Below, one piece after another: positions 15,929 through 19,828 of a DNA stretch of 64,000 nucleotides; the first letter of the stretch is position 1, and every line of letters starts with the position of its first letter. Source of the stretch: Oceaniglobus roseus (GTDB lineage Bacteria > Pseudomonadota > Alphaproteobacteria > Rhodobacterales > Rhodobacteraceae); NCBI RefSeq assembly GCF_002869745.1, contig NZ_PNOS01000006.1:62001-126000 (forward strand). The letters are read 5' to 3'. The notes under the pieces were generated by a model that did not search any database, was not told the origin of the DNA, and saw only the letters and a list, made by a program, of their open reading frames with translations. The position numbers and the translations under genes are program-made.

Positions 15929-16208
15929 AGATGCCGGGCGACGATGTCTCCACCCCGACCGGAGGGAGCGGGCAATGGGTGCGCGGGGGCGCTCCTCCGC
16001 AGGGTCCGGCGTAGGAGAATGACCGCCGTCTCAGCGTGCCTGGCGGCATCTCTGATGCCAGCAGTGCAGGCGGTGCCGCGCCGCTTCCTCACGCCCAGAG
16101 CAGGAGCGCGCCAGTGGAAATCGCGCCGATCCTGCCCTGAGACGGCGCCTTTCCGGGCCACTCTCGCCGGTTTTCGGGGCGGCAAGGATTTTCGGGCCAA
16201 GGACAGAA

Positions 16209-16290
16209 TCGCCTTGTACCCCCTATGTTTCCTTGGCTATACGCGTCGGCGGAGACGTGGCCGAGTGGTCGAAGGCGCTCCCCTGCTAAG
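16209..16290 (+). repeat. Left arm of 82-bp inverted repeat (tRNA-Ser promoter plus 5' half)
   Basis: This arm matches the reverse complement of 17626-17707 with 4 mismatches in 82 positions, all in the upstream part; the 40 tRNA positions are identical. Identity stops at the anticodon loop (CTGCTAAG), a classical integrase crossover position in tRNA genes. Confidence 0.9.
16251..16290 (+). pseudogene. Truncated tRNA-Ser(GCU) 5' half
   Basis: From GGAGACGTGGCC to CCCTGCTAAG this is identical to the first 40 bases of the intact tRNA-Ser at 17665-17576 (acceptor strand, D arm, anticodon stem and loop). It then changes to unrelated sequence (CGAGCATACTTTTC), so it cannot fold as tRNA. The upstream region is also duplicated, so a stub transcript ending at the hairpin at 16311 may still be made. 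Confidence 0.88.
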
Positions 16291-16310
16291 CGAGCATACT
16301 TTTCAGACAA

Positions 16311-16337
16311 GTCGCTGATTTTCAGCGGCTTTTTTGT
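16311..16337 (+). terminator. Intrinsic terminator after the tRNA stub
   Basis: GTCGCTGA and TCAGCGGC form an 8-bp stem (one G-T pair) with a 3-nt loop, followed by a run of T. It would end transcripts starting at the duplicated tRNA promoter. The sequence 15929-16208 before it shows no gene; 16338-16541 holds only unsupported reading frames. Confidence 0.75.
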
Positions 16338-16541
16338 TTGCCTAATTTCCGATTCCCAAATCTTGCCCATCATGCCTGGAACTCCCAGCCATGCGCCAGA
16401 ACGCGATCCTTGAGGTCGGCCGGCGGGGGCTTGCGATAGCGCCTTTGGCTGCTTCATCTTCGGCCTTCCACCGCTCGACCTGCTCCTGCGCGCGCTCTGC
16501 GACGCCTTTCGGGCAGGCTTCTGGGACAGCGATTTCTTCAT

Positions 16542-16862
16542 TTGGAATACGGCACGTCTGCTGATACGCGCGCAAACCGCGGCTACGAGGTCATCGTCAA
16601 GCAATCCGCCGCACGAGCGACAGCCGGTTTGTCGAAGCCCACGTGGTTCGTCTGCGCACGGCGCATCATAGTGCACGTCAACCACAGAGGCTTCGACGGC
16701 AGGACGAAGGGGCCTCATATCATCGGTCGTCTCGATGAAGTCCTGCTGGAGCGGATGAATGCCGTCCGGGCACGGATCCAGGCCGAAGCCGACATCGCTG
16801 CCTACTACCGCGAAGAAAAGTGGGGGGAAGAGCAGGCGCGCGAAGACCGCGGTTTCCAATAG
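16542..16862 (+). CDS. Hypothetical island protein
   Basis: This is a possible 106-residue product starting at TTG. The C-terminal half (LDEVLLERMNAVRARIQAEA then YYREEKWGEEQ) looks like a real charged helix, with coding-type codon use; the N-terminal half is less convincing and the true start may be internal. It is followed 54 bp later by another unknown gene in the same direction. Codon use is less GC-biased than the chromosome around it, consistent with acquired DNA. No family is recognised. Confidence 0.4.
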   Translation: MEYGTSADTRANRGYEVIVKQSAARATAGLSKPTWFVCARRIIVHVNHRGFDGRTKGPHIIGRLDEVLLERMNAVRARIQAEADIAAYYREEKWGEEQAREDRGFQ

Positions 16863-16916
16863 GGAACCGCGCTTTCGCCGCTGCTCCTCCCTTTCAATCA
16901 ACACAAGGAAAGACCA

Positions 16917-17357
16917 TTGGATATGCCATTCAAATCCGCCTCCGAGATCACCGCCATGGCCGCCTCGTGCTTCCCGCTGGCGCGGGCCGCTGCCACCGGG
17001 ATCGACCAGGACGTGCTCGACCTCGTTGCGCCGAAGCCGAAGCAGGAGGCCAAGAAACTCGCCACGCTGCTGCGGGCTGGCAAGATCTTCGACAAGGGCA
17101 TCCTGGCGATGCTGCACGAGCTGGTCGGCGTCCTCGACGCCGAGATCGCCGAAGGCACCTACGTCGAGCCGCGCTACGACCACAGCCCGGAGAACGTCTC
17201 CGACTACAAGACCTGGGGCCAGGAGCGGCTCACGCCGGAGGCTGATCGCCTGTCGAACGCCCTCGCGGTGCTGATCGAGCTCTACGCCACCCTCTCGGCG
17301 GTGCACGACATCCTGCGCGCCGAGAAGGCCTTGGAGGGGCTGCGCTCCGCAGCCTGA
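16917..17357 (+). CDS. Hypothetical helical protein of the tRNA-Ser island
   Basis: The 146-residue cytoplasmic-looking protein is mostly alpha-helical, with segments such as KQEAKKLATLLRAGKIFDKG and LSNALAVLIELYATLSAVHD. It has no signal peptide or membrane span. The TTG start at 16917 has AAGGA 7 bp upstream; ATG at 16923 is the alternative. Third positions are strongly G/C, so it is well adapted to the host. I do not recognise it; location between inverted tRNA-Ser halves suggests island cargo. Confidence 0.65.
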   Translation: MDMPFKSASEITAMAASCFPLARAAATGIDQDVLDLVAPKPKQEAKKLATLLRAGKIFDKGILAMLHELVGVLDAEIAEGTYVEPRYDHSPENVSDYKTWGQERLTPEADRLSNALAVLIELYATLSAVHDILRAEKALEGLRSAA

Positions 17358-17575
17358 TGAGACACGCGGGCCGGAACACCCGCCTCAGGGCGCGCCGACG
17401 AACCTTCTGCTGCTACAGATGTCGGCGCGCCTGCTTCACTTTCTGCTTCATACTGGCGGAGCGGTCTCCGGAAATGTGTAGCAAATTGTGTAGCAACGCC
17501 CAGGCCGCTTTCAGGGCAGGATAACGTTAAGCCTTTGTTATTATTTTATATTTCCGGCCTTACAGGCAGCGAAAA

Positions 17576-17665
17576 TGGCGGAGACGAAGGGATTCGAACC
17601 CTCGAGACGGTTTCCCGCCTACTCCCTTAGCAGGGGAGCGCCTTCGACCACTCGGCCACGTCTCC
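17576..17665 (-). tRNA. tRNA-Ser (anticodon GCU)
   Basis: The gene is 90 nt with encoded CCA: a 7-bp acceptor stem GGAGACG/CGTCTCC, D-arm GCCGAGTGGTCGAAGGC, anticodon loop CTGCTAA (GCU), a long variable arm typical of serine tRNA, and T-arm GGGTTCGAATCCC. It is the only intact tRNA seen here. Its promoter and 5' half are repeated in inverted orientation at 16209-16290. Confidence 0.97.
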
Positions 17666-17707
17666 GTCGACGCGTATAGCCAAGCAAACATAGGGATTAC
17701 AAGGCGA
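17626..17707 (-). repeat. Right arm of 82-bp inverted repeat (tRNA-Ser promoter plus 5' half)
   Basis: This is the partner of 16209-16290, read on the minus strand; it covers the promoter region (TCGCCTTGTA...) and the tRNA down to the anticodon loop. Here the 3' half of the tRNA follows, so this arm belongs to the functional gene. Confidence 0.9.
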
Positions 17708-17812
17708 AACTGCCTTCTGAGCGAGAAAACTCCCTTACATCGAAAACCGCCTCAAGTGGCACTGAGAGGCACCGAGCGGCACCAAGTTTGGGCAAGATCT
17801 GGTCAATTTCCC

Positions 17813-18560
17813 TTACAGCAGAAGCGGCTTCGCCGCGCTGCAAGCTGCCAGCAGATGGATCGCATGATTGTTGATTTCCAGTGAGAAGTGCCCCATCATC
17901 TCACCGCTGACATCCATACGCTTCGTTTCTGCGAGGATCCGGCTCTCCCACGTATGCCGAACGCCTCCGATGGTGTGCTTTGATGACGGCAGCAGCCCGT
18001 TGTTCCGCAAGTATTGGTTCATCGTTGCCGAGTAGGTGCTCTTGCCACGGTAGCGCGGGAAGCCGTCGGCGTGGCGCTTCGCCGCAGCCAGCGCCACCCC
18101 GACCAGGGGTACCTCGCGAACAGACGACGTGTTCTTGATCTCGCGCCGGTTCTCGCCTTCTTCGAACTTCAGCCGAAGATGCGGAATCGGGTGATCCAAC
18201 ACGATCGCCTCTGGCGGCAGGTCGCAGATCTCCGACTGACGACATCCGGTCTCGACAGAAATCAGCAGGATGTCCCGCGCTTCATCGTTGGTGCCGTCGA
18301 ATGCGCCGGGCGCGAACCACTTCTCTGTGATCCAATCTACGGGGATCTGGTTCTCGCTCTTGTAGCGGTTGTCGTGGGCCGCGATACGCTCGACCTCTTC
18401 GACGAGTCCGGAGAGCCGCAGAGCAGGCTCCTCCACAGCGCCGAGGAGCGCCTTGGCGGTCTCTGTCGCGGGATCGGCAAAGGATGCCTCCACGCGCTCC
18501 AGAACGTCTTCCAGAGGCGCCTCCAAGAGGTCGGAAAGCGGCCTGTAGGCAAAGCCTCGG
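17813..18560 (-). pseudogene. Tyrosine recombinase (phage/island integrase), broken
   Basis: The C-terminal ~240 residues of a tyrosine integrase are readable: GCRQSEI (catalytic Arg I), IGGVRHTWESRI (H-x-x-R box) and MMGH. No tyrosine follows at the nucleophile position; the frame ends AACSAAKPLLL, so the tail is altered. The N-terminal part is missing because the IS256-type element begins at about 18560. The gene lies just upstream of the tRNA-Ser promoter, where an integrase using this tRNA would be expected. It is very probably inactive. Confidence 0.82.
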
Positions 18561-18570
18561 GCCTGGTCGA

Positions 18571-18584
18571 GGTGGAGTTTGGCG
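18571..18584 (+). repeat. IS256-type left terminal inverted repeat segment
   Basis: GGTGGAGTTTGGCG matches the reverse complement of 19847-19860 (GGTGTAATTTCGCG) at 11 of 14 positions. It lies just before the transposase start. Confidence 0.5.
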
Positions 18585-18614
18585 ACTTCAACCACGGACC
18601 ACACGGAGACCCCG

Positions 18615-19828
18615 ATGACCAAGACGAACATGGACCTTTCCGAGCTTCTGGCAAAGCACGACCAGGGCGATTTCCTACGCGCTGTCGCTGAGGCGGTTCT
18701 GCAGCTGATCATGGAGGCCGATGTCGAGGGCCTGATCGGCGCCGGTCGGCACGAGCGCAGCGGCGAACGCACGACCTGGCGAAACGGGTATCGGGAGCGC
18801 GCCCTCGATACCCGTCTGGGAACGCTGAACCTGCGGGTGCCGAAGCTCCGGCAGGGCAGCTACTTTCCCGGCTTCCTCGAGGCCCGCAAGACCTCGGAGC
18901 AAGCGCTGGTCGCGGTCATTCAGGAGGCGTGGATCGGCGGGGTATCGACCCGGCGTGTCGATGATCTGGTCCAGGCGATGGGGCTCTCGGGCATTTCGAA
19001 GAGCACGGTTTCAAAGCTCTGCAAGGACATCGACGAGCGCGTCGGCGAGTTCCTGAACCGCCCGCTCAGCGGCGAGTGGCCCTATCTCTGGCTGGATGCC
19101 ACCTATCTCAAGGTCCGCCAGGGCGGGCGCATCGTGCCGGTCGCAGCCATAATCGCCGTCGCCGCCAACACCGAGGGGCGGCGCGAGATCATCGGTCTGG
19201 GGATCGGACCTTCGGAGGCCGAGACCTTCTGGACCGAGTTCCTGCGCTCGCTGAAGGCCCGTGGCCTCGGCGGTATCAGGTTGGTCATCAGCGATTCGCA
19301 TACCGGTCTCAAGGCCGCCATTGCCCGGGTCTTTGAGGGTGAGCTTGCGAACGGCAAAGATGTCGCGTTCACTGGATGAGGCACGCACTCGCGCATGTCT
19401 CCCGCGGTCAGCACACCGTCGTCGCCGCCGCGATCCGGCAGGTCTTCGACCAGCCCGACCGCGCCCATGCCGGCGAGACCTGGCGCAAGGTCTCCGAGCA
19501 GCTGCGTCCACGCTGGCCCAAGCTCGCCGACCTGATGGACGCAAGCGAACACGACGTGCTGGCTTACACGTCCTTTCCCCGACAGCATCGCACGAAACTG
19601 CATTCGACCAACCCGATCGAACGCCTCAACAAGGAGGTGAAGCGCCGGGCAGACGTCGTCGGCATCTTTCCGAACGAGGCTTCCATCATGCGCCTGATCG
19701 GCGCGGTGCTGTTCGAACAGAACGACGAATGGCAGACCGCAAGCCGCTACATGATGGTCGAGGCCTTCGCCCAGATCGACACCGAAGAGATCGACCCCAT
19801 TCTCAGCATCACAACAGAAGCCGCCTGA
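18615..19828 (+). pseudogene. IS256-family (mutator) transposase, frameshifted
   Basis: The first part (18615-19379) has the N-terminal region MTKTNMDLSELLAKHD, GERTTWRNGYRER, the first catalytic Asp in WLDATYLKVR and the second in VISDSHTGLKAA. The second part (19376-19828, another frame) has the C-terminal segment with the catalytic Glu in STNPIERLNKEVKRR. The DDE triad is thus split. Around 19337-19370 the expected stretch between ARVF and HWMRNAL-type sequence is replaced by unrelated sequence about 8 nt longer, which shifts the frame and stops at 19379. The ATG at 18615 has GGAG 6 bp upstream. It is probably inactive unless recoding occurs. Confidence 0.85.

Follow-up and report, generated by a model that had tools for sequence, protein, structure and literature searches.

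A probable rearranged relic of a tRNA-targeting island at inverted tRNA-Ser(GCT) 5' halves

Does a short segment of DNA enclosed by two inverted copies of a tRNA-Ser promoter and 5' half constitute a reversible switch that keeps the tRNA whole in either orientation, or does it preserve the remains of a mobile element that has been inverted? The locus lies in a stretch of 64,000 nucleotides (G000:C53:62001-126000, hereafter the window).

Inverted arms and the only tRNA-Ser(GCT) gene found

The arms, their upstream regions and the intact tRNA gene are arranged as follows.

16100-16208, plus strand: left upstream region (up'), diverged from the right upstream region
16209-16290, plus strand: left arm, with tRNA-Ser promoter and 5' half
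17576-17665, minus strand: intact tRNA-Ser(GCT) (ARAGORN; Rfam tRNA, 59.8 bits)
17626-17707, minus strand: right arm, with promoter and 5' half of the intact tRNA (arm alignment)
17708-17848, minus strand: right upstream region, common to the tRNA-Ser(GCT) genes of some relatives (sequence comparison)

The two inverted arms of 82 bp with four mismatches that the original prediction had described are confirmed, and each of them does carry a tRNA-Ser promoter and 5' half. They are identical at 78 of 82 bases, with the mismatches at 16219, 16220, 16231 and 16249 and a longest perfect run of 41 bases that ends at 16290. A repeat search stretches the inverted pair to 106 nt at 87% identity (16189-16294 / 17622-17727), and in a gapped alignment the weaker likeness of the arm flanks reaches about 16143 and 17774. 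Since the left region matches the right copy with an E value of 4e-32 in a BLAST search against its own genome, the arm pair is not a product of chance.

The intact tRNA-Ser(GCT) is the single tRNA that ARAGORN finds in the window and the sole full-length close match in the genome assembly, the next full-length match being a tRNA-Ser(GGA) at 86%. It is also the only serine tRNA gene for AGC/AGU codons found in the genome. Besides the tRNA, Rfam gives a single hit, on the strand opposite the tRNA, with a score that falls far short of the gathering cut-off. The right upstream region, about 130 bp with GGTGCC-like repeats, recurs upstream of tRNA-Ser(GCT) in some relatives across genera, and others have no match to it. 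A candidate third upstream copy at 16295-16440 was dropped, as 18 to 289 of 500 shuffles equalled the observed score over seven references (18 against G001:C23, 29 against G004 and 289 against the left copy).

Island DNA at the locus and in its relatives

Between the arms and beyond the right one, the following features were recognized.

16439-16550, no strand assigned: two stretches of island interior, brought together by loss of about 270 bp (matching L094 3654-3727 and 3995-4039, and L097 3555-3628 and 3896-3940)
16548-16862, plus strand: PemK/MazF-like gene remnant, its 5' part gone through a deletion of 5.6-5.7 kb at 16548
16917-17357, plus strand: 146-aa island gene, found at 12 loci in the genome contig collection
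17473-17496, no strand assigned: GTGTAGCAA direct repeats, also near both ends of more complete islands
17576-17598, minus strand: tRNA 3' end, the attachment core (attL), copied at the far island end in L097, L094, G014 and G001:C11
17869-17890, plus strand: 22-bp IS21-type end fused to the integrase remnant (exact match)
17888-18565, minus strand: tyrosine integrase remnant, inverted, on the 5' side of the tRNA (profile search and comparison with island relatives)
18579-19379, plus strand: IS256-family transposase gene, which cuts off the integrase N-terminus (profile search)

Comparison with relatives identifies the segment as the tRNA-proximal end of an island whose target is the 3' end of tRNA-Ser genes. 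Specifically, more complete islands in Wenxinia saemankumensis (L094) and Pseudooceanicola marinus (L097) are ordered attR, integrase, interior, 146-aa gene and tRNA-Ser(GCT), and the 23 bp of the tRNA 3' end are copied at the far end, exactly in L097 and with one difference in L094. The same layout, with the same integrase family and the 146-aa gene, occurs at tRNA-Ser(CGA) in G014 and G001:C11, where a 24-bp tRNA 3' end recurs at the far end with 23/24 and 24/24 identical bases, respectively. In the window, the tRNA 3' end adjoins island DNA as it does in L094, L097 and L100. The locus shares with L094 and L097 not only the tRNA but also its tRNA-proximal DNA (90-91% identical) and pieces of integrase DNA (87-97%), whereas those islands have retained attR, an integrase frame of full length and a further 5.6-5.7 kb. 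The L094 stretch that is missing from the window contains a MobV-like relaxase gene (43.6 bits against an NCBIfam cut-off of 100; Mob_Pre, 28.4 against a Pfam cut-off of 25.5), and a relaxase gene is absent at the locus under study. Additionally, apart from the core itself the window has no 23-mer that comes within 6 mismatches of it, and a search of its own genome, which could miss an altered copy, returned no core fragment. As no second core copy, and hence no attR, was found, the locus is the relic of an island and not an island.

The name of the PemK/MazF-like remnant comes from annotated plasmid genes under the match and from a G001 relative that scores 21.6 bits against a Pfam cut-off of 23.1; the window frame itself has no Pfam match. 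The 146-aa gene matches neither Pfam nor NCBIfam, and its relatives occur in 4 of 61 genomes, its own genome counted. Among the 12 loci with this gene, the integrase is seen only in L093, L094 and L097; in L091, L092 and L100 the contig stops before the expected integrase position, so these three are uninformative for the count. Records of 109 plasmids and 66 phages match the query, none over 80% of its length among the best 20 of each, and the best plasmid match among those 20 of 109 covers 47% of the query with island DNA that does not include the tRNA.

An integrase remnant was predicted upstream of the intact tRNA, and one is indeed there, broken and on the minus strand; it lies 5' of the tRNA, whereas L094 and L097 have a full-length integrase frame inside the island. 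Compared with the L094 frame, the remnant is without about 118 N-terminal and 99 internal residues. Its tyrosine region, which carries the catalytic tyrosine, is gone, and the 22-bp IS21-type end stands in its place, abutting the integrase at a short shared sequence (joint 17888-17890). This end is found at four further sites in the genome, three of which read as element ends, and a neighbouring transposase frame matches IS21 below the NCBIfam cut-off. By eye, a further frame to 19828 resembles a continuation of the IS256-family transposase gene. More distant relatives of the integrase, with 59-61% identity over the C-terminal part, share the strand of tRNA-Ser(TGA) and follow it at a distance of 0.4 kb (G011) and 4.4 kb (G018); going by these sequences, integrase placement varies in the wider family, and a position 5' of the tRNA, like that of this locus, was seen in none of them. 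Because the relatives of this integrase use the tRNA 3' end, the predicted crossover in the anticodon loop was rejected for it; the left tRNA piece, moreover, seems to pass the anticodon arm.

Inversion and the origin of the left arm

Seventeen other loci were tested for the integrase and the 146-aa gene together. Both genes are present in five of them (G014, G001:C11, L093, L094 and L097), on one strand in 5/5, and both lie 3' of the tRNA in all four loci whose fetched stretch includes it. In the window, the integrase remnant and the 146-aa gene lie on opposite strands with the tRNA between them, and this departure from the shared strand of the five loci means that an inversion took place. 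In line with this, once the segment is flipped between the arms in silico, the blocks of the locus, except for the inverted 5' half, follow the order of L094 and L097, and one complete tRNA-Ser(GCT) results, in agreement with the prediction that recombination between the arms keeps one tRNA complete. The earlier suggestion of mobile DNA at the tRNA followed by an inversion is thus supported by the island relatives and by the strand comparison. The proposed comparison with related genomes showed the tRNA 3' end at the island borders of the relatives but yielded no close relative with an uninverted locus among those compared, and for that reason we infer the order of events. Synteny of the flanking kinase gene was uninformative, kinase matches being present in 41/41 genomes with the best one outside its own genome 48% identical.

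The left arm runs on into a longer tRNA piece and a joint to the island DNA.

16251-16299, plus strand: truncated tRNA-Ser(GCT), comprising the 5' strand of the acceptor stem, the D arm, an anticodon arm mismatched at one stem position and the probable variable-arm start CATAC (sequence comparison)
16300-16438, no strand assigned: joint between the tRNA piece and island DNA, 139 bases, with no convincing homologue in the fetched relatives or 198 family genomes
16311-16335, plus strand: hairpin and T run, terminator-like (read from the sequence; 16313-16339 is a 27-base exact match in G205)

The arms had been thought to end at the anticodon loop, but the likeness of left and right continues through the anticodon stem (GCGAG versus GGGAG) to 16294. 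Past the anticodon arm, the left piece continues as GCGAGCATAC and the right one as GGGAGTAGGC. Directly after the stem, CATAC (16295-16299) is a known start of the tRNA-Ser variable arm: the starts among the collected tRNA-Ser(GCT) genes are TAGGC, TAGAC, TAAAC, TAACG, TATAC, CAGGC and CATAC, the last being present in L029 of the same family and in eight viral stretches that were picked with a pattern including CATAC. The left gene probably broke in its variable arm at about 16299, and this arm would have differed from the TAGGC of the right gene. Five bases are thin evidence, and we therefore infer the two alleles from CATAC rather than read them off it. The terminator hairpin predicted at the left end of the segment corresponds to the terminator-like hairpin and T run at about 16311-16335.

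Left and right copies are identical at 68 of 119 positions upstream, 36 of 40 in the promoter and 40 of 40 in the tRNA 5' half, and a comparable pattern separates the right copy from G001:C23 (81/128, 34/40 and 35/35, respectively). On this comparison, the conservation profile of the two copies is the pattern of two real tRNA genes. A conserved promoter and 5' half beside a diverged upstream region imply that the left piece belonged to a working gene not long ago, or that it is somehow still maintained. In a tree the left copy is unplaced, with surrounding support of 40 and 48.

In the same genus, G001:C23:250724-250974 (L038) likewise contains an orphan 5' half of tRNA-Ser, which is interrupted within the anticodon loop. 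The DNA that cuts it resembles, by eye, an IS5-type element at the contig end, and the only close 3' half found in the G001 assembly is that of its intact tRNA-Ser gene.

One alternative is a reversible switch. In invertible DNA switches, inverted repeats flank a segment and a recombinase drives its inversion. Here, RecA or an unknown recombinase would flip the segment by exchange between the arms; the single tRNA-Ser 3' half would join now one, now the other promoter and 5' half, and selection would thereby act on both arms. Inverted repeats do stand at the segment ends, the in silico flip preserves a complete tRNA, and the left promoter and 5' half are conserved next to a far less similar upstream region; yet a recently truncated, once functional gene yields the same conservation, and a comparable orphan 5' half exists in G001. 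The integrase remnant is broken, and neither the eight frames of at least 60 aa that overlap the segment nor frame 15944-16318 match any Pfam family, so that no recombinase gene was found in the segment among these frames. Only one orientation is in evidence. We regard such a switch as very unlikely. That the segment still flips homologously, with an essential single-copy tRNA alternating between promoters and 5' halves and both halves preserved by this, appears still less probable.

The joint of the left piece was followed further. A homologue search with 16292-16442 gave matches at E up to 0.01 in 18 of 198 family genomes, its own included; those outside its own genome span 20-52 bases, the best being the hairpin in G205. 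When one mismatch is tolerated, a 17-mer over the joint turns up in 1 of 394 family genomes, which is its own; the reversed control gave two matches (G266 and G314) against this one true match. The exact 19-mer of 5' half plus GCGAG occurs in 1 of 390 order-level genomes, again its own, and in no viral contig. Both genome sets were drawn from larger groups, and within the sets searched the left joint appears private to this genome.

These searches bear on a second alternative, in which another element inserted at the anticodon arm and supplied the right upstream region and 5' half, the left copy being the old one, after which the body of the element was deleted and the neighbourhood inverted. 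Islands that carry a 5' tRNA fragment are on record: in the Islander paper, they make up 159 of 3919 islands, and 2083 have anticodon-centred sites (PMC4383910). The right upstream region is closest to that of another genus (G030; 100/120 positions, grouping support 93/100), and CTCCC-CTGCTAA-GCGAG retains, by eye, most of the dyad of an attachment core. However, no body of such an element was found, the GCGAG 19-mer was found, within the sets searched, in this genome alone, and the tRNA-Ser likeness of the left piece seems to extend into the variable arm. The original prediction had likewise offered a replaced 5' half followed by an inversion; of these, the inversion stands and the replacement is unproven, and we consider the alternative unlikely.

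Alternatively, a single inversion with staggered breaks might have copied the upstream region and 5' half, creating pair and inversion in one step, and one such event from the L094/L097 order would give this anatomy. Copies made in this way would begin identical, yet the upstream regions differ at 51 of 119 positions and the 40 tRNA bases at none, and the left piece continues as CATAC and not TAGGC. We regard this reading as very unlikely.

A probable decayed element and known systems

We propose, with a probability of about 0.74, that the locus is what decay has left of an integrative and probably mobilizable element at tRNA-Ser(GCT), inverted, with arms that represent two alleles and with no dedicated switch. 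In this proposal, the target of the insertion was the 3' end of a tRNA-Ser(GCT) gene. The tRNA-proximal end of the element, with the attachment core and end repeats, is still attached to the intact tRNA, and the middle is deleted. The left arm would derive from a second allele of tRNA-Ser(GCT), of which it is the 5' part; this allele was presumably functional until recently and then truncated. The inversion may have come about through homologous exchange inside the arms, or else through breakage at the outer joints, on the right where the IS21-type end meets the integrase (17888-17890) and on the left before 16439. Rare flipping of RecA type between the arms could occur, and the tRNA would survive it whole. 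In all probability, the arms are two tRNA-Ser alleles, one of them truncated, and so not purpose-built recombination sites. The inverted pair, though real, seems to have come about by accident as the genome decayed, and a working DNA switch is unsupported here.

The locus is an unusual, rearranged tRNA-island relic of a known kind. With the tyrosine-integrase islands that target tRNA genes, as described in the Islander paper (PMC4383910), it shares a core at the tRNA 3' end, an island integrase and a whole tRNA; it differs in that no second core was found, in that the integrase, which is broken, lies 5' of the tRNA, and in that the tRNA fragment has the opposite orientation. According to that source, Islander rejects candidates with a tRNA fragment in the opposite orientation, and its filter would therefore reject this locus. 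A tRNA island can thus be scrambled past the criteria of a standard island finder while the tRNA stays whole, the defeating features being the opposite-orientation fragment and the integrase on the other side of the tRNA.

A small literature search found no title or abstract opening on inverted tRNA halves around an island segment, a result that leaves absence unproven, and neither showed nor excluded an essential tRNA that alternates between promoters. An active flip would place an essential tRNA gene under two promoters in turn; no such case is known to us.

Further island arrangements were seen in relatives. In Phaeobacter sp. 22II1-1F12B (L101, 10001-18486), a distance of 8 kb separates tRNA-Ser(GCT) from an island end that carries 16 bases of the tRNA 3' end, an arrangement suggestive of tandem islands. 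In L090, L095, L096 and L098, the tRNA-proximal island segment occurs with no match to the integrase of this locus. It lies about 2 kb from a tRNA-Met in L095, L096 and also L091, the contig of which is too short to show whether the integrase is present, and in L090 it stands beside a frame that by eye resembles a serine recombinase. An exchange of integration modules is possible in L090, L095, L096 and L098.
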